Part shown: piece by piece, positions 339 to 17,419 of the stretch
Layout: every line of letters starts with the position of its first letter
Position numbering within the stretch: position 1 is the stretch's first letter
DNA from: an uncultured Nitrospiraceae bacterium
GTDB lineage: Bacteria; Nitrospirota; Thermodesulfovibrionia; Thermodesulfovibrionales; Dissulfurispiraceae
Length of the DNA: 54,449 bases
NCBI GenBank assembly: GCA_903822005.1
Contig: CAIJNL010000033.1
Location: forward strand, 1-54,449
Reading direction: 5' to 3'
Program-made: the position numbers and the translations under genes
The notes under the pieces: model-generated
Seen by the model: only the letters and a program-made list of their open reading frames with translations
Databases searched by the model: none
What the model was told of the DNA's origin: nothing

Positions 339-1526
339 ATGAAAAAAGCGGTAATATTGTTCCTCATGATATCACTGTTCTTTATCGGACTGATTGCATC
401 AGGCACAATGGCCGATGTCAGCAAGGCAGTTGGCAAGAGCGAATATGTCGGCTCGGAAGCTTGCAAACAGTGCCACAAGGCCGTGTACGACAGCTGGAAA
501 CAGACCTACCACAGCAAGATGGTCAGAAAGAAACATGAGGCGCTGTTGAAAGACGCCGCTGAAAAATGGAAGAGCGACGGCGTCAGCGAAGGTCCGACGA
601 CCGGGAATGTCACCGGCAAGAAGTTCAGCATGGACGATGTGCAGCTAACTATCGGGTCAAAATGGAAGCAGCGCTACCTGGTTAAGGACGAGTCCACCGG
701 CGGTTACCAGTTCCTGAACAAGCAGTTCAACAGGGTGACAGGCAAGTGGGAGAATTACGCCGGCAACAAGAATGACTGGGACACCATGTGCGCTACCTGC
801 CATACCACGGGCTACCGCATCACCTCCTATGACTCCGAAAACCCCAAGACACAGAAGGTGGAATACAAGGAGCTGAATAACGGCTGCGAGAACTGCCATG
901 GACCGGGCATCAAGCATGTGAAGAGCAAGTCCAAAAAAGACATCTGGAACTTTGCGGGCAAGACAAAAGAAGAGCAGTCAAGGGTCTGCGGTTACTGCCA
1001 CATCCGCCTTGAGAACGAGAAGTATAAATCGGCCCAGGGCAACAACCGCGAGGATTTCCCCGCGCCGAAAGTTGGCGACAGCTTCAAACCGTGGGACAAC
1101 TGGACAAAATGGTATCCTGACGGCGTAATCCTGCCAGGAATGCAGCCCAATCACCCGTTCAATGCCGAGTATAAAGGCGACCTGAAGGGTCTATTCATGC
1201 TGGACGACATTGCAAAAGCCAATGGCGTTTATGAAGAGGCAAAGCACCATCAGGAGTATCAGGGCTTCCTCCAGTCAAAGCACTATAAGTCTGCGGACAT
1301 GAGCTGCAATGACTGCCACTCCTCGCATGCCACCAAAAAGCAGCCGATGAAAGATCCAAAGACGAGCTGCGCGCAGTGTCATGATGAGTCGTTCACTTAT
1401 ACCAAGTATATGCCAGGCACAGGAAAGACAGCAGAGAATCTCTTCCTGAGGTCCCACACCTTTATCAAAAACCAGCAGAGGCCCAACCTGCCGACGGTGA
1501 CGGGTGAGCCAGAATATTACAAATAA
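339..1526 (+). CDS. Periplasmic hexaheme c-type cytochrome (cytochrome c554-like)
   Basis: 395 aa, with a GGAGGAGGG ribosome binding site just before the ATG. An N-terminal signal peptide (about residues 1-25, MKKAVILFLMISLFFIGLIA) directs export. Six CxxCH heme motifs are visible: residues 42-46, 151-155, 183-187, 217-221, 323-327 and 344-348. Extra histidines (for example SKHYKS and RSHTF) could serve as distal heme ligands. The layout of an early heme, a cluster of three, then a distal pair resembles the cytochrome c554/multiheme family that passes electrons between quinol oxidation and periplasmic reductases. No reductase or quinol dehydrogenase gene is adjacent, so its partner is unknown. 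It appears monocistronic, ending in a strong terminator shared with the convergent phosphoesterase gene. Confidence 0.85.
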   Translation: MKKAVILFLMISLFFIGLIASGTMADVSKAVGKSEYVGSEACKQCHKAVYDSWKQTYHSKMVRKKHEALLKDAAEKWKSDGVSEGPTTGNVTGKKFSMDDVQLTIGSKWKQRYLVKDESTGGYQFLNKQFNRVTGKWENYAGNKNDWDTMCATCHTTGYRITSYDSENPKTQKVEYKELNNGCENCHGPGIKHVKSKSKKDIWNFAGKTKEEQSRVCGYCHIRLENEKYKSAQGNNREDFPAPKVGDSFKPWDNWTKWYPDGVILPGMQPNHPFNAEYKGDLKGLFMLDDIAKANGVYEEAKHHQEYQGFLQSKHYKSADMSCNDCHSSHATKKQPMKDPKTSCAQCHDESFTYTKYMPGTGKTAENLFLRSHTFIKNQQRPNLPTVTGEPEYYK

Positions 1527-1605: not shown

Positions 1606-2769
1606 CTACTCGACAATCAACTGGCCGCTCATTTCTTCGTGGCCCTCCCCGCAATAGATATCGCAGAAGAATGTGAAGGTCCCTGTCTTGTCAGGTACCA
1701 GGCGTACTCTTGTTGTTTCTCCCGGCTTAATGTCTGCACGTATGCCGAAATCAGTACTATTGAAGCCATGCATGCGGTCCAGCGTTGTAAGTTCAAAGAC
1801 CACCGGCTCTCCCTTTTTCAGCCTGATCTCGCGGGGCGAATATTCAAACCTCCGCGCAGTAATTTTAACAACACGCTCCTGGGCCGCCTTTATCGGATAT
1901 TCGTTCAGCACCAGGGCGGCGTTTGACACCTTCGCGTCCACGCTCCGGTAGCCAAGATTCTTATATGGGGCCGCAGGGTCCCATGCGACCGGCGCTTTTT
2001 TCGGCACGGAATTAGGCGCCGGAAGAGGATACATCAGCCCATTCGCTGCATGATGCTGGATATGCGAGGTCATGTGATGATGCTCCTGGTGGATATGACC
2101 ATAAAGCACCGTGACGTTTTTATACGGCATCAGCAGTTCTATCGCCTTTGATCCGTCGCGTGTCCACCAGTCCCATTGAGGCAGGAGATCAAAGAGAGGC
2201 CGGTGCGTAAAGACCACAAGCCTGTCCTCCTTGTCGAATTTTTTCAGTTCAGAGCCAAACCACTGTAATTGCTCGTCACCGATAACCGTGGCCGGATCGG
2301 AAACATTGTCAAGGACTATGAAATTTACGCCCTTGTGCTGAAAGCTATAGTGGGTCTCTCCGAAAATCTCTTTGAATATCTCACCTTTGTCCAGACTTGC
2401 GTCGTGTTCCCCCGGCATAAGCCTGATGTTTTTTACCTTCAGGTCCTTGATGATCTCGCGGAATTCGGACATGCGTTTCCTCCGGTCCTTCGGATCATCG
2501 GTATTATGCGTCAGGTCACCGGTGAACATAATGAAGTCGGGTTGTGACTTCATACTGTTTATGGCAGCAATCGCTTTTTTCAGGGTGCCCGTGAAATCGG
2601 GGTTGACTTTGGTGTCTGTAAATCCCCAGTGAGGATCTGACATCTGGACGAACATGAAGTCTTCGTTCATCCTGCCGCCGGCCGCGCCGACCAGATTTCC
2701 TGGACCCAGCACCAGCACCGCAGTGCCCATCCCAGCCAGTTTTAGAAATTCTCTCCTGTCAATACTCAT
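1606..2769 (-). CDS. Tat-exported metallophosphoesterase fused to a CuA-type cupredoxin domain
   Basis: 387 aa. The N-terminus has a twin-arginine signal (MSIDRREFLKLAGMG, then a hydrophobic stretch), so it acts outside the cytoplasm after folding. Residues about 38-245 form a calcineurin-like phosphoesterase: SDPH (44-47), GDLTHN (84-89), GEHD (120-123, usually GNHD), THRP and YGHIHQEH (223-230) are its metal-binding motifs. Residues about 300-387 are a cupredoxin resembling cytochrome oxidase subunit II. They carry H334, C369, C373, H377 and M380, the His...CxxxCxxxHxxM pattern of a binuclear CuA centre. The residue between the cysteines that is usually Glu is Ile here. The substrate is unknown. 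A copper redox centre on a phosphoesterase is unusual. An AAGGAGTG ribosome binding site precedes the ATG. Confidence 0.85.
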   Translation of the reverse strand: MSIDRREFLKLAGMGTAVLVLGPGNLVGAAGGRMNEDFMFVQMSDPHWGFTDTKVNPDFTGTLKKAIAAINSMKSQPDFIMFTGDLTHNTDDPKDRRKRMSEFREIIKDLKVKNIRLMPGEHDASLDKGEIFKEIFGETHYSFQHKGVNFIVLDNVSDPATVIGDEQLQWFGSELKKFDKEDRLVVFTHRPLFDLLPQWDWWTRDGSKAIELLMPYKNVTVLYGHIHQEHHHMTSHIQHHAANGLMYPLPAPNSVPKKAPVAWDPAAPYKNLGYRSVDAKVSNAALVLNEYPIKAAQERVVKITARRFEYSPREIRLKKGEPVVFELTTLDRMHGFNSTDFGIRADIKPGETTRVRLVPDKTGTFTFFCDIYCGEGHEEMSGQLIVE

Positions 2770-2992
2770 GATTCACTCCTTGCAGTCAAGATTTGCGGCC
2801 GCAAAATGGAACTCGCCTCCCAGTACATGTATTCGAAAGCTGGCCGCATACTCAATTAATATCAAGGTTTAAGATGCTTGTCAAAGGTCTTTATGGTTTC
2901 AGAATTACCCCGCCCGGCCGGGTCTTCCTTGCTGCTGGAGATGGTGCCCTGACATACTGCTGGCAGTTATTGACATATTAAATTGATATAGA

Positions 2993-12393: not shown

Positions 12394-13347
12394 ATGTTGA
12401 CGAGACGTGAATTTATGGTTGGAGCAATGGCCGCCGGGGTGTTGCTGTACACAAAAACAGGCTATGCTAAACCAGCCCAACCTGCCACGCCGGTGAACTT
12501 CGACGTTCCCGCTGGAGCATGCGATTGCCACACGCATATCCATTATCCTGACAAATTTCCCTTTTATCCGGGACGTGTGTATACACCCGAGGCGGCGATG
12601 CCGGATGAGATGTCAAGGCTCCATAGGGCGCTTCACATCCAGCGCGTCGTTATAGTCACGCCGAGTGTCTACGGAACCGATAATTCGTGCTCAATTTACG
12701 GCATGAAGGCGCGCGGCAAAGATGCACGCGGCGTCGCGGTGATCGACGACAAAACCACGGAAAGAGACCTTGACGCCCTCGTAAAGGCAGGTTTTAAAGG
12801 CATACGGCTCAACCTTCATACGGTCGGGACGCACGACCCGTCCGTTGCCGCAAAGCAGTTTCAGAACGCGGCCAAACGCGTGCAGTCTCGCAACTGGCAC
12901 GTACAGCTCAATACAAGCCTGTCAGTGGTTGCCGCATTGAAAAATGAGTTCGCCGCGTCGCCCGTTCCGATAGTGTTTGATCATTTCTGTAACGCTGATA
13001 CAAAGCTTGGTGTAAACCAGCCCGGCTTTGCAGAACTGGTTGACCTGGTCCGGTCTGGCAAGGCCTACGTAAAAATCTCAATAACAGCTGGTCCGAGAAA
13101 GGATTATACGGGCTTTACACCGCTTGCCAAGGCGCTGATTGCCGCAAACCCGGACCGCATCGTGTGGGCAACAAACTGGCCGCATCCAAACTCGGTCACA
13201 CCGCCAGGGCGCAAACCCACTGAATTGACCCCCCTGTTTCAGGTCGACGACGGGCTCACGTTAAACCTGCTGCCGGTTTGGGAACCCAGTGCTGTTGTGC
13301 GCAAGAAAATCCTTGTGGACAACCCCGCGCGTCTTTATGAGTTTTAA
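12394..13347 (+). CDS. Tat-exported amidohydrolase-2 family protein (lactonase-like)
   Basis: 317 aa. MLTRREFMVGAMAAGVLL is a twin-arginine signal, so the enzyme should be exported. The mature part is a TIM barrel of amidohydrolase family 2, closest in pattern to 2-pyrone-4,6-dicarboxylate lactonase-like hydrolases: DCHTHIHYP (44-52, metal or substrate HxH), FDHF with H197, and ATNWPHP near 259-265. Position 261 is Asn where characterised lactonases of this group have a catalytic Asp, so activity may differ. The family hydrolyses lactones or decarboxylates cyclic acids. Such enzymes are usually cytoplasmic, which makes export notable. The gene is divergent from the PrpR-like regulator and ends in its own terminator. 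A TATAAT lies at 12368-12373 but very close to the start. Confidence 0.78.
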   Translation: MLTRREFMVGAMAAGVLLYTKTGYAKPAQPATPVNFDVPAGACDCHTHIHYPDKFPFYPGRVYTPEAAMPDEMSRLHRALHIQRVVIVTPSVYGTDNSCSIYGMKARGKDARGVAVIDDKTTERDLDALVKAGFKGIRLNLHTVGTHDPSVAAKQFQNAAKRVQSRNWHVQLNTSLSVVAALKNEFAASPVPIVFDHFCNADTKLGVNQPGFAELVDLVRSGKAYVKISITAGPRKDYTGFTPLAKALIAANPDRIVWATNWPHPNSVTPPGRKPTELTPLFQVDDGLTLNLLPVWEPSAVVRKKILVDNPARLYEF

Positions 13348-13405
13348 GGGGCGCTGAGTATTAATTTAGCCACCAGGATCACGTTGTAAGTAATGCAATC
13401 AAATA

Positions 13406-13438
13406 AAGGAGCTGCCGGTTTTCGGCAGCTCCTTTTCA
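13406..13438 (+). terminator. Rho-independent terminator after the exported amidohydrolase
   Basis: AAGGAGCTGCCG (13406-13417) pairs with CGGCAGCTCCTT (13423-13434) around a five-base loop and is followed by a short T-run. It separates the amidohydrolase gene from the next operon. Confidence 0.9.
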
Positions 13439-13515
13439 CAAAGACTACATCACGCAACAACACTTAAGGTCAGATGAAGGAAAAATGTCGGCATTGAAAT
13501 CGCTAGCATTGGTTT

Positions 13516-13530
13516 TAATAGGTGCTATTA
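13516..13530. repeat. TAATAG-gtg-CTATTA inverted repeat upstream of the 13590 promoter
   Basis: A perfect 6-bp inverted repeat with 3-bp spacer lies 60-75 bp upstream of the -24 box, a normal enhancer position. It does not match the other candidate enhancers in the window. Apart from this, the terminator and the promoter, the 338-bp gap 13348-13685 shows nothing. Confidence 0.35.
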
Positions 13531-13589
13531 GGAGCCCCAAATCGTATCTCGCTTGCCCATAGTGCTTGATACTATAAGCATTATAATAT

Positions 13590-13604
13590 TGGTATAAAAC
13601 TTGC
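13590..13604 (+). promoter_or_regulatory. Sigma54 -24/-12 promoter of the 13686-17419 operon
   Basis: TGGTAT, five bases, TTGC followed by TA: the GG and GC doublets are exactly ten bases apart as sigma54 requires, and only one position of the -24 box (T for C) is off consensus. The ATG of the first gene is about 80 bp downstream. Confidence 0.65.
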
Positions 13605-13612
13605 TATTTCGT

Positions 13613-13642
13613 ATGCAACGATAACTTTTTCGTTTAGGCGCG
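13613..13642 (-). promoter_or_regulatory. Candidate activator site resembling the porin-upstream palindrome
   Basis: Read on the minus strand this contains GCGC, TAAACG, five bases, GTTA and GTTGC. The palindrome at 22439-22466 has the same core, TAAACG-N5-GTTA, with the same flanking GCGC and GTTGC. It lies between the sigma54 promoter and the start codon. That is an unusual place for an enhancer, so the assignment is tentative. Confidence 0.35.
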
Positions 13643-13685
13643 TCGCAAACAATAGTTAAATACACATGTATGGAGGCAACTGACA

Positions 13686-14660
13686 ATGAAAGAAGTTCTT
13701 ATGATGAAAGGCGCGCGCACCGTCATTGACTTGTGCGCAAATGCAAAAAAGGGGGAAAATGTGCTTATCGTGACCGACCCGGAACGCGTGAGCATCGCAA
13801 AAGTGTTAATGGCCGCTCTCTATGAACGTTCGATCGATGCGGTCATGTGCGTAATGCCCGCTAATGAATTCGACGGACAGGAACCGCCAAAAACTGTTGC
13901 TGCCGCATTGCTTGAGGCCGATGTAGTGTTGATGCCGGTGAGCCGGTCTATTTCCCATTCAACAGCCGTGAAAGCTGCACTGAAGAATGGAGCACGCATT
14001 GTTGCCCTTTCGGCATTTGTAGAGGAACAGATGTATATCGGCGGGATACTGGCTGATTTTGCGAAAGAAAAAATTGTCTGCGACCGTTTTAGTGATTACT
14101 TTGATAAAGGCAGCACTGTAACAATCACCACGCCTGCGGGGACCAACTATACGGCCAGTATTGCCGGCAGGCCCGGAAATTCGCATTCGGGTATTGTAAA
14201 TAAACCCGGGGCCTATACTGCCGTTCCCAATATTGAAGCAAATGTCTCCCCGGTGGAAGGGACTTCGGAAGGCGTCCTCGTAATTGACGGCAGTGTTCCC
14301 AACTTCGGCATTGGCGTCGTTGAAACGCCCGTCATTTATAAAATGAAGGGCGGCGTGATATACGAAATAAGCGGCGGCAAAGAAGCGGCGCGACTGAGCA
14401 GCATGTCGCAATCGATGAATGATCCCGCGGTGTACAATATCGCCCAGATTGCCATTGGGCTTAACCCCGAGTGCAAAAGGGTAAACGGCCAGATGCTGAA
14501 CGATCACGGCGCCTACGGCAGGGTGCATATAGGTATCGGCACCAGTTCTTCACTTGGCGGGAAAGTGAAAGCCCCGCTTCATTATGATGTGGTTATGGAA
14601 AAACCGACCATGATTATTGACGGCAAAGTCGTGCTGAAGGACGGCATTCCCATAGACTGA
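13686..14660 (+). CDS. M29 aminopeptidase / NicX-like metalloenzyme
   Basis: 324 aa cytoplasmic protein, first in a three-gene operon (82 bp, then 40 bp gaps). It has the fold and motifs of the family that joins M29 (thermophilic) aminopeptidases with the ring-cleaving 2,5-dihydroxypyridine dioxygenase NicX: 'PNIEANVSPVEGTSEG', 'GGKEA', 'NIAQIAIGLNP', H281 in VHIGIG and H299-Y-D301. The HxD pair is a metal ligand pair in both subgroups. Q254, in NIAQIAIG, occupies a position where aminopeptidases usually have a metal-binding Glu, which weakens the peptidase reading. Sequence alone does not decide between peptidase and ring-opening enzyme. The neighbours (an amidohydrolase, a carboxylate transporter) suggest catabolism of a cyclic or amide-containing compound. 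Confidence 0.7.
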   Translation: MKEVLMMKGARTVIDLCANAKKGENVLIVTDPERVSIAKVLMAALYERSIDAVMCVMPANEFDGQEPPKTVAAALLEADVVLMPVSRSISHSTAVKAALKNGARIVALSAFVEEQMYIGGILADFAKEKIVCDRFSDYFDKGSTVTITTPAGTNYTASIAGRPGNSHSGIVNKPGAYTAVPNIEANVSPVEGTSEGVLVIDGSVPNFGIGVVETPVIYKMKGGVIYEISGGKEAARLSSMSQSMNDPAVYNIAQIAIGLNPECKRVNGQMLNDHGAYGRVHIGIGTSSSLGGKVKAPLHYDVVMEKPTMIIDGKVVLKDGIPID

Positions 14661-14742
14661 GGATGCTTTCTCAGAAAAAGAATCTCTGGTATTATAAGTC
14701 ATCAGTAGGCATTTAAAGAATAATCGGGAGGGCGCGAAGATA

Positions 14743-15909
14743 ATGAGTAATCTCACCTATATTAAAGCGGCATATATGTTCGATAGCCTGGACGGGACTT
14801 TCAAGCAGGGTCCGGTTGTTACTGTCGAAAACGACAGGATCGTCAATGTTCGCTTTGGCGTTTCATCCCTTCCGGACAACGGAAAAATCATCGAACTCAA
14901 GGGATGTACCCTGCTGCCGGGCTTCATTGACGCGCATGATCATCTGGCCCTCTCTCCCCAGTTAAAAAATTATCCTTCTATCATGGCTGATCCTGATCCT
15001 GTCCTGCTTATGCGGTCTATTATCAATATGAAAACCGACCTGTACGCCGGGGTAACGACTTCCAGGTGTCTGGGTGACAGGAATTTTCTTGATCTCTATC
15101 TGAAGGATGCCGTTAACCAGGGGCTGATCGAGGGGCCACGGATTTATACCTGCACCCGCGGTCTTAAGGCCAGTCACGCTCACGGTTTTGTAGGCACTCC
15201 ATTTGACGGAGTGGAAGCGATGCGGGCGGCTGTACGTGAAAATATAAAACGCGGGGCTGATTTTATCAAGATATTTGTGACAGGCAACTTCCGGCAGTCG
15301 CCATGGCTGCCCTACTACCTGAGTCCGCAGGAAATTTTCACCATTGCCGAGGAAGCCCACCGGGTAGGAAAAAAGGTTGCTGCCCATTGTATCGGAGGCG
15401 AGGGCCTGGACCAGTGCATTGAGCAGGGTGTGGACATCATCGAGCACGCCTATTATGCAACCGACGCACAGATAGAACGTCTTCTAAAAAAAGACAGGTG
15501 GGTCGTATTCACCCCGAGTAATAACTTTAATGATGCAAGATGGGCGAACGTAAGCGAAAAAGCCGTAAATGAAATGCGAGTCAATCGTGAGGAAGTTTTA
15601 AACAGCCAGAAGAAGGTGCTCAACTCAGGCGTCAAATTTGCTATCGGGACCGATGCCACTCATGGCGCGGTTGCTGAAGATGTGATATTTGTGGTCAATA
15701 CAATGGGCGGTACCATTGCCCACGCGCTTCAGGGGATATCCAAGTCAGCGGCAGAGCTGTGTGAAATGAGCCAGCTTATTGGTTCAATAACTGAAGGTAA
15801 AAAAGCGGATATTGTAGCGGTAACCGGTGTTGTGGAAAAAGATATCGAGGCGCTTAGGAATGTCTGCTTTGTAATGAAAGATGGAATTACTGTAAGAAAT
15901 AGCCTGTAA
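14743..15909 (+). CDS. Amidohydrolase (imidazolonepropionase/prolidase-like, metal-dependent)
   Basis: 388 aa, the normal size for amidohydrolase family 1. Visible active-site residues in order: H65 and H67 in DAHDH, K176 in FIKIF (the Lys that is carboxylated to bridge two metals), H215 in AAHC, H235 in IEHAYY and D304 in GTDATHG. 'LLPGFIDAH' and 'GKKADIVAV' are family hallmarks. No signal peptide. It hydrolyses a C-N bond in a cyclic amide, amino-acid derivative or dipeptide; the exact substrate cannot be read from sequence. It lies between the M29/NicX-like gene and the DASS transporter, consistent with stepwise breakdown of an imported compound. A GGGAGG ribosome binding site lies upstream of the ATG. 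Confidence 0.8.
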   Translation: MSNLTYIKAAYMFDSLDGTFKQGPVVTVENDRIVNVRFGVSSLPDNGKIIELKGCTLLPGFIDAHDHLALSPQLKNYPSIMADPDPVLLMRSIINMKTDLYAGVTTSRCLGDRNFLDLYLKDAVNQGLIEGPRIYTCTRGLKASHAHGFVGTPFDGVEAMRAAVRENIKRGADFIKIFVTGNFRQSPWLPYYLSPQEIFTIAEEAHRVGKKVAAHCIGGEGLDQCIEQGVDIIEHAYYATDAQIERLLKKDRWVVFTPSNNFNDARWANVSEKAVNEMRVNREEVLNSQKKVLNSGVKFAIGTDATHGAVAEDVIFVVNTMGGTIAHALQGISKSAAELCEMSQLIGSITEGKKADIVAVTGVVEKDIEALRNVCFVMKDGITVRNSL

Positions 15910-15949
15910 CACGGTCTATAACTTCCCTATACCACTGGAGGTGTGAAAG

Positions 15950-17419
15950 ATGTTTGGCTTGGACACTAAAGATCAACGCAATCTTATCTGGCTTTTACTG
16001 GCCTTGGCGAGCATGTTCCTGATTTTTTTCGCTGGTCCTGCCCCGGGCCTGTCTATTCAGGGTCAGCTCGTACTCGGCATCCTTGCGTTTTCAGTCATTG
16101 TCTGGATAACGCAGGCCATCTCGTATCCGCTCAGTGCCATTGCCATTATCGCTTTTCTTATCCTGTCTCTTGGATTTGCACCGGCTCCGTCCGGAAGTGG
16201 TCTGCTCGGCACCGGCAAGGCCATTGCGCTGGGCCTTAGCGGCTTCACCAATAGCGGCTGGGTGCTTGTCGCCACAGGGCTCTTCCTGTCAGCGATAATA
16301 GTCGATACCGGGCTCGAAAAGAGAATGGCGCTGGCAATCCTGAAAGTCTTCGGAACAAAGCCGAAGAATATTATCCTGGGAATGATCCTGGCCATGTATG
16401 CATTCGCGTTTTTCATCCCGTCTGCAACCGCCCGGGCGGCCACTCTGATACCCATCGCCCTTGGTCTGATAGAGACATTTAAGGTCAGCCTGAAAAGTAA
16501 TTTCGCGAAAGCTTTAACTATGGCCGTTGGAATCTCGGGGACTCTTTCGGGTATCGGCCTTTTAACCGGGGTCGCCCAAAACCCTGTCACCGTGTCATTC
16601 GTCGAAAAAGCGACCGGCAAGGGCACTACATGGATGGAGTGGCTCGTAATCGCTTTGCCGTTCGCTCTTGTCCTTGCGGGTGTTCTGTATTTCCTGCTTG
16701 CACGGATGATCAAGGACGAAGTTGCAGAGATTCCCGGGGGCAAAGAGATCGTATACAAGGGGCTTCAGGAGTTAGGCCCCATGAGTTTCCGTGAAAAAAA
16801 GGTCTTCTTTATTCTCGTTGTCACAATTATTGCTTGGGCTACTGAGGCATTTCATAAGATTGACGCCAACACGGTATCTATTATTACTGTGATGGTTCTT
16901 CTTGCTCCTGTCATAGGAGTTACCGAATGGAAAAACGTCGGCAAAAAAGTAGATTACGGTACATTATTGCTGTTTGCCGCTGGTATTTCTCTGGGTGATC
17001 AGGTATTAAGAACTGGTGCGGCGACATGGCTCGCGAAAAATTCTCTGGGCGCAGTAGGTGTAACCGAGATGCCGCCTTTCCTGATCCTGGTTTCCGTTGC
17101 TGCTGCCGTGTTTGTAATCAGGATAGCGTTCTCAAGCAGTACGTCTGCAACCGCTACATTGATACCGACTGTCCTGGGGTTCCTGATGAGCGCATCGGCT
17201 CCTAATCTGCCAATCGCCGGGATGGCAATCATCACGTCGTTCATTCTTCTGTTTGCTTCCATATTGCCGGTGAACGTACCACAAACAATGATAGCCTATG
17301 CCACCGATACCTTTGACACTAAAGATTTCCTCAAGATAACGATACCCTTGACTGTCATCGGATTTCTGGTTTGGCTGATTTTCTATGCAACCTATTGGCA
17401 CTGGATTGGACTAGTATAA
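15950..17419 (+). CDS. DASS-family anion:Na+ symporter (SLC13)
   Basis: 489 aa with roughly 11-13 membrane segments. It carries the divalent-anion:sodium symporter pattern: 'FIPSATARAATLIPIALG' and later 'FSSSTSATATLIPTVLG', the two Ser/Thr-rich re-entrant motifs that bind Na+ and carboxylate, plus 'PVNVPQTMIAYATDTF' near the end. The family imports di- and tricarboxylates or sulfate. A GGAGGTG ribosome binding site precedes the ATG. As the last gene of the 13686 operon it probably brings in the substrate processed by the two enzymes before it. Two hairpins follow it. Confidence 0.85.
   Translation: MFGLDTKDQRNLIWLLLALASMFLIFFAGPAPGLSIQGQLVLGILAFSVIVWITQAISYPLSAIAIIAFLILSLGFAPAPSGSGLLGTGKAIALGLSGFTNSGWVLVATGLFLSAIIVDTGLEKRMALAILKVFGTKPKNIILGMILAMYAFAFFIPSATARAATLIPIALGLIETFKVSLKSNFAKALTMAVGISGTLSGIGLLTGVAQNPVTVSFVEKATGKGTTWMEWLVIALPFALVLAGVLYFLLARMIKDEVAEIPGGKEIVYKGLQELGPMSFREKKVFFILVVTIIAWATEAFHKIDANTVSIITVMVLLAPVIGVTEWKNVGKKVDYGTLLLFAAGISLGDQVLRTGAATWLAKNSLGAVGVTEMPPFLILVSVAAAVFVIRIAFSSSTSATATLIPTVLGFLMSASAPNLPIAGMAIITSFILLFASILPVNVPQTMIAYATDTFDTKDFLKITIPLTVIGFLVWLIFYATYWHWIGLV

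Follow-up and report, generated by a model that had tools for sequence, protein, structure and literature searches.

An exported protein of the metallophosphoesterase (MPE) fold carries a CuA-type cupredoxin as a C-terminal fusion, and we put the chance at about one in two that this protein, a member of what we propose to call the GEHD family, works with a small electron carrier of its own, here the fused CuA domain, with electrons exchanged between CuA and the MPE site. Metallophosphoesterases rank with the commonest hydrolases, and to our knowledge they are not counted among the proteins that pair with electron carriers. An MPE family that spans many phyla and is almost always accompanied by one of three unrelated carriers, twice in fused form, would point either to a redox enzyme built on the MPE fold or to a general tie between hydrolysis and respiration; as far as sequence comparison goes, it suggests that an old hydrolase fold has been put to use in redox chemistry. 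The family is widespread and apparently without prior study: a search of open-access papers for metallophosphoesterases or phosphoesterases in combination with cupredoxin, CuA, MauG, SoxA or plastocyanin returned nothing relevant on it. Because the fused proteins set MPE and carrier at 1:1, the question can be addressed on a single polypeptide.

The Fused Gene and Its Product

The gene occupies positions 1606-2769 on the minus strand of the window (the whole stretch of DNA that was analysed, 54,449 nucleotides), with its stop codon at 1606-1608, and encodes 387 amino acids; an earlier sequence-only reading had placed it at the same coordinates and had left out the strand. By open reading frame, Pfam and the AlphaFold2 model it is a complete gene consisting of a Tat signal, a GEHD-type metallophosphoesterase and a CuA-type cupredoxin, and a Shine-Dalgarno-like AAGGAG, read from the sequence, lies upstream of the ATG (2776-2781, minus strand). 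The Tat signal peptide that had been noticed at residues 1-30 (2680-2769, minus strand; DRREFLKLAG) scores 20.4 bits on TIGR01409, above the cut-off of 16.7, while the Pfam TAT_signal match stays below its cut-off. A search of the domain databases for this architecture, proposed in the same reading, returned Metallophos (PF00149) at residues 40-228 with 45.7 bits (cut-off 21.5), and Cupredoxin_1 with 55.2 bits (27) and COX2 with 24.9 bits (22), both at about 292-386, each of them passing its curated Pfam cut-off. The AlphaFold2 model, built from 44 sequences, has a mean pLDDT of 81, with most of both domains at about 90 or above and a low-confidence linker at residues 252-295 (1885-2016, minus strand; pLDDT about 50); its pTM is 0.67, so that the arrangement of the domains is not firm. 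Pfam, phmmer and predicted structure thus agree on the fusion of an MPE to a CuA cupredoxin that had been claimed.

A CuA-Type Cupredoxin Domain

The cupredoxin domain covers residues 296-387 (1609-1884, minus strand) and was identified by Pfam, phmmer, Foldseek and VIA-align. Searched against the PDB with phmmer, it retrieved the Thermus CuA domain at about 1e-13 in a gapless alignment with all five ligands aligned; Foldseek placed the C-terminal domain of the model on 2cua_A at 0.9 Å over 88 columns, and VIA-align paired model residues 295-387 with residues 75-167 of 2cua (93 residues, 1.2 Å, zero gaps). The constant offset of 220 puts H334 (1768-1770, minus strand) on H114 and the loop C369-x3-C373-x3-H377-x2-M380 (1630-1665, minus strand) on C149, C153, H157 and M160, which together we take to be the CuA ligands of 2cua. 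All five residue numbers in the sequence-only reading are correct for the 387-residue protein, in which C369 and C373 are the sole cysteines, and the agreement of phmmer with the superposition argues that the ligand pattern recognised there is not due to chance. Failure of these residues to come together in a predicted structure had been named beforehand as grounds for giving up the assignment; tested indirectly, by superposition on 2cua, no such failure was found. On the model, then, the C-terminal domain is a CuA-type cupredoxin with the fold and the full ligand set of two Cys, two His and one Met, and its copper content is predicted. The best NCBIfam match of this part is a NosZ model, far below cut-off, and the NosZ models cover residues 276-387 only. 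A second CuA match in the same genome proved to be an ordinary coxB (G000:C23).

The separate cupredoxins encoded at 32 orthologous loci all retain C-x3-C-x3-H, and the position of the first CuA ligand is occupied by His in 17 and by Met in 15; the last ligand is Met in 30 of the 32 and Val or Leu in two. Some partner cupredoxins therefore need not be canonical CuA proteins. Among the Burkholderiales, a comparison of L145, L146 and L151-L153 with other cupredoxins shows that His and Met at the first ligand vary among close relatives, which makes these proteins natural CuA-site variants. A CuA-like site in a protein that is neither a cytochrome oxidase nor an N2O reductase would deserve attention, and so would natural partners in which Met replaces the first CuA His.

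The Metallophosphoesterase Site

The MPE domain (PF00149) spans residues 38-250 (2020-2658, minus strand), and its nearest solved folds are GpdQ (VIA-align Z 21.8, 2.0 Å over 201 residues) and Rv0805 (Z 20), followed by purple acid phosphatases (Z 17). On the same strand lie the metal ligands D45 and H47 of the D-x-H motif (2629-2637), D85 at the bridging-ligand position (GD, 2515-2517), H189 (2203-2205) and H225 and H227 of GHxH (2089-2097), all invariant in a 25-member family alignment, as is W199. The site had been described as a complete calcineurin-type motif set, and for D45, H47, D85, H122, H189, H225 and H227 that description holds; the exception is the canonical metal-ligand Asn of GNHD, whose place in the GEHD motif (E121-H122, 2404-2409) is taken by Glu. 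In the family alignments and the comparison with the two solved folds, E121 aligns with N80 of GpdQ and N97 of Rv0805, and the Glu is invariant in 25 diverse family members. Directly after GHxH comes a His-rich hairpin, EHHHMTSHIQHH (residues 229-240; 2050-2085, minus strand), which is specific to the CuA-partnered clade, where H231 is conserved in 33 of 33 members, E229 and H239 in 32 each and H240 in 31; it is absent from the other clades in the 25-member alignment.

Another account would see in the MPE domain an ordinary phosphoesterase that acts outside the cytoplasm and has Fe or Mn in its site, with a carrier that either holds that site in its active oxidation state or senses respiratory redox. 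The domain shares its fold with GpdQ, Rv0805 and purple acid phosphatases, most metal ligands are retained, and calcineurin and purple acid phosphatases are inactivated when their dinuclear site is oxidised, all of which would fit. However, Glu in place of a metal-ligand Asn in every member argues for a changed chemistry, and a dedicated carrier seems costly for mere regulation. The sequence-only reading had offered redox regulation as one of two possible functions; a redox role for the pair gains support from the wider family, and a redox-gated hydrolase is kept among the competing readings as an unlikely one.

One Family, Three Electron Carriers

By genome scan, plasmid searches and a local HMM survey we collected 117 GEHD-family loci, a set that is unevenly spread over taxa, includes near relatives and counts Derxia gummosa twice (L039, L149), and at 114 of these a small electron carrier adjoins the MPE gene or lies within it; two of the three carrier-less exceptions are near contig ends. 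Roughly a third of the loci were recovered by protein similarity without use of the GEHD pattern, and they too are GEHD. As a control, 30 MPE loci were sampled from 11 pair-bearing genomes, and a carrier partner was found at 7 of 7 GEHD loci against 0 of 23 others (Fisher p 5e-7). The window protein shows the traits by which we would define the family, namely the GEHD motif, a Tat signal and a fused or adjoining small electron carrier.

The carriers are of three types: a CuA-type cupredoxin; a blue-type cupredoxin with the pattern H...C-x2-H-x2-M, whose best NCBIfam match is amicyanin, below cut-off; and a haem c protein of the SoxA/TsdA type with a conserved Cys, which matches PF21342 above cut-off and SoxA in the PDB at 7e-14 with the Cys aligned. 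A tree made by a quick method separates three clades, one per carrier, with SH-aLRT values of 97 for blue copper, 99 for CuA and 93 for haem c. The pairing of MPE and carrier is conserved, and the carrier itself is swapped between clades.

On plasmid 1 of Gemmatirosa kalamazoonensis, a GEHD MPE has been fused independently to a blue-type cupredoxin that is amicyanin-like (L155, 4815-6245), and plasmids of Streptomyces and Mycobacteroides abscessus (L156, L157) carry the closely packed genes of a cupredoxin, a GEHD MPE and a small hydrophobic membrane protein in that order. A general role with SoxYZ or in thiosulfate oxidation was considered and set aside, since soxYZ was seen in S. meliloti only. 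Nor was haem c adopted as an obligatory partner of the CuA clade: a search of six genomes of Proteobacteria, Thermodesulfobacteriota and Myxococcota, of undemonstrated sensitivity, gave no match.

Respiratory Context and the Question of Copper Delivery

The convergent neighbour of the fused gene encodes a c-type cytochrome (339-1526, plus strand), in which the six CxxCH motifs of the hexaheme protein reported by the sequence-only reading are indeed present. Its bearing on the fused gene found no support: the two genes converge, a symmetric terminator-like repeat read from the sequence (1551-1578) lies between them, and no such cytochrome was seen beside the orthologues that were read. The hexaheme gene thus probably stands outside the module, and we set it aside as the electron partner. 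The same cytochrome gives partial, below-cut-off matches to a GSU2203-type decaheme model and to a model of a UshA-like MPE-multiheme (seleno)protein, the latter being another hint of combinations of MPE with haem. The next same-strand gene upstream, about 280 bp away, is a putative 2-oxoacid:ferredoxin oxidoreductase-like gene, named from its reading frame. Farther along the window (12394-17419), a Tat-exported amidohydrolase-like protein, an aminopeptidase-like protein, a second amidohydrolase and a dicarboxylate-type transporter, also named from their reading frames, stand in a row that looks like a catabolic cluster.

Several loci place the family near terminal oxidases. One same-family homologue is immediately followed by SCO and a caa3 oxidase operon, rhizobial members have SCO and cbb3 genes as neighbours, and in the window's order a strong COX1 match occurs in 8 of 9 gene-bearing genomes against 36 of 167 others (p 7e-5, not kinship-corrected), an association weakened because it is confounded by kinship. 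Taken together, the caa3 and cbb3 contexts and the order-level association would fit a link to respiration. Elsewhere in the window's own genome (G000:C23:25149-33459), the reading frames give in a row SCO, a caa3 operon, a Tat molybdopterin-type oxidoreductase-like protein and monohaem and diheme cytochromes. At L033, L163, L164 and L158 a carboxypeptidase-regulatory protein is encoded upstream of the MPE, with SCO or cbb3 oxidase genes close by, and in L033 and L164 this protein contains a cupredoxin-like C-x2-H-x2-M motif.

Such neighbours might be taken to mean that the cupredoxin brings copper for insertion into CuA or CuB during oxidase assembly and that the MPE is its scaffold or regulator, much as the sequence-only reading had suggested in proposing a copper carrier or insertion factor; the variability of the first CuA ligand would be compatible with this. 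Yet at most CuA-clade loci that were read neither an oxidase nor an SCO gene is close by, and in the two sister clades the partner is a blue-copper or a haem c protein. Copper cannot be supplied by a haem protein, and the SoxA-like haem c that stands in for copper weakens the proposal to the point where we consider copper delivery quite improbable. We prefer to see the MPE and its carrier as a pair with a redox function, because electron transfer is what the three unrelated carriers have in common.

MauG-Family Proteins and Cofactor Maturation

In the haem-c clade, a gene for a MauG-family diheme protein usually lies upstream of the MPE gene, and a module of MauG-like diheme protein, Tat-exported GEHD MPE and SoxA-like monohaem cytochrome recurs in Myxococcota, Acidobacteriota, Planctomycetota and Binatota (L047-L116); other candidate neighbours of this clade were discarded, being beyond these three genes mostly antisense shadow ORFs. 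The module raises the idea that the redox partners act in the manner of MauG or MbnH and oxidise residues of the MPE, such as the conserved Trp W199 or W201, to form a protein-derived cofactor. We know of no cupredoxin that carries out residue-oxidising chemistry of this kind, and in the 117-locus survey the MPE genes of the CuA and blue-copper clades showed no MauG-like neighbour. The MauG-family protein encoded beside the MPE across most of the haem-c clade and the invariance of W199 do speak for maturation, as does BthA, which has been proposed to oxidise its putative phosphatase partner (PMC6405878); we rate maturation very unlikely.

A Two-Gene Module Fused in One Genome

Orthologues at about 51-73% identity come as two neighbouring genes, one for the MPE and, directly after it, one for a cupredoxin that generally has a signal peptide of its own, and such pairs were found at 32 loci in Nitrospirota, Thermodesulfobacteriota and Burkholderiales. 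The pair is present in 18 of 300 Burkholderiales genomes, and in the window's order the MPE occurs in 9 of 176 genomes, with the fusion in the window's genome alone; the other genome of the genus is without the gene. In four Nitrospirota members, a SoxA-like monohaem cytochrome gene is located just upstream. Judged by these comparisons, the MPE-CuA fusion, known from one assembled genome, is a local form of a module that is conserved elsewhere as two genes.

Around the position of the linker, the orthologues show a stop codon and the signal peptide of the cupredoxin. Read-through of a lost stop codon is ruled out as the origin of the fusion, since that signal peptide is gone as well. Two separate genes that were linked by mistake during sequencing or assembly could be suspected where a fusion occurs in one genome and the genus's other genome has no copy, but the missing signal peptide and the open frame across the junction call for a deletion and not just a lost stop, the sequence contains no Ns and GC is alike in both parts, which makes an artefact hardly credible.

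A Proposed Redox Partnership

The reading that we favour is that of an electron-exchanging pair. In it, the substrate would be handled at the MPE's dinuclear metal site (D45, H47, D85, E121, H189, H225 and H227), and CuA would swap electrons one at a time with this site, or with a redox species that arises there, and relay them to or from a periplasmic cytochrome c and a terminal oxidase. We infer transfer of electrons between the domains and its direction, the metals presumably bound, and an MPE chemistry that would be either redox or redox-gated. The layout would parallel that of nitrous-oxide reductase, with a C-terminal CuA domain serving a separate catalytic domain. The carriers could also serve regulation or cofactor maturation and not turnover. 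A bolder and distinctly more tentative proposal is that the GEHD family constitutes a new class of extracytoplasmic oxidoreductases on the MPE fold, in which the site has been retuned from Asn to Glu for redox catalysis and a replaceable carrier, be it CuA, blue copper or haem c, ties the substrate to the respiratory chain.

Comparison with Known Systems

The CuA domain finds its closest match in subunit II of the Thermus ba3 oxidase (2cua), with which it shares the cupredoxin fold (1.2 Å over 93 residues) and the positions of the five side-chain ligands. Unlike cytochrome c oxidase subunit II, however, the window protein has no membrane anchor, no COX1 alongside and no adjoining oxidase genes, and is a two-domain protein with a Tat signal that is joined to a phosphoesterase; the true coxB lies elsewhere in the genome (G000:C23). 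NosZ, including L-NosZ, likewise has a C-terminal CuA domain that serves another metal-containing domain, but in place of its beta-propeller with the CuZ site the window protein has a Metallophos domain at its N-terminus.

By fold and curated profile the protein belongs to the metallophosphoesterase superfamily (PF00149). It resembles the class III phosphodiesterases of the GpdQ, Rv0805 and CpdA type in fold (Z 20-22 to GpdQ and Rv0805) and in most metal ligands, and departs from them in its predicted Tat export, in its dedicated redox partner and in a ligand set where the N of the class III series D, H, D, N, H, H, H is Glu121. Purple acid phosphatases are recognised by the Tyr ligand of GDxxY and by GNH(D/E), for which the window protein has GDLTH and GEHD, and throughout the CuA clade the position of that Tyr is taken by His or Gln. 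The Sox system offers another parallel, in that a SoxA-like, Cys-bearing haem c is encoded next to an MPE-fold protein, as with SoxA(X) and SoxB; the GEHD family differs in having no 5'-nucleotidase-type C-terminal domain, which is absent from the window protein's Pfam matches, and no general link to soxYZ.

BthA of Burkholderia is a MauG-family diheme enzyme whose gene always lies downstream of one for a putative phosphatase, and which is proposed to oxidise this partner (PMC6405878). The haem-c clade is alike in that a MauG-family redox protein is encoded together with a phosphatase-like protein; the authors call the partner of BthA a putative purple acid phosphatase, and the accessible text of that paper reports no CuA or cupredoxin. 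By analogy, the BthA diheme protein and its phosphatase appear to be the nearest published precedent for the pairing of an MPE-fold protein with a redox partner of its own.
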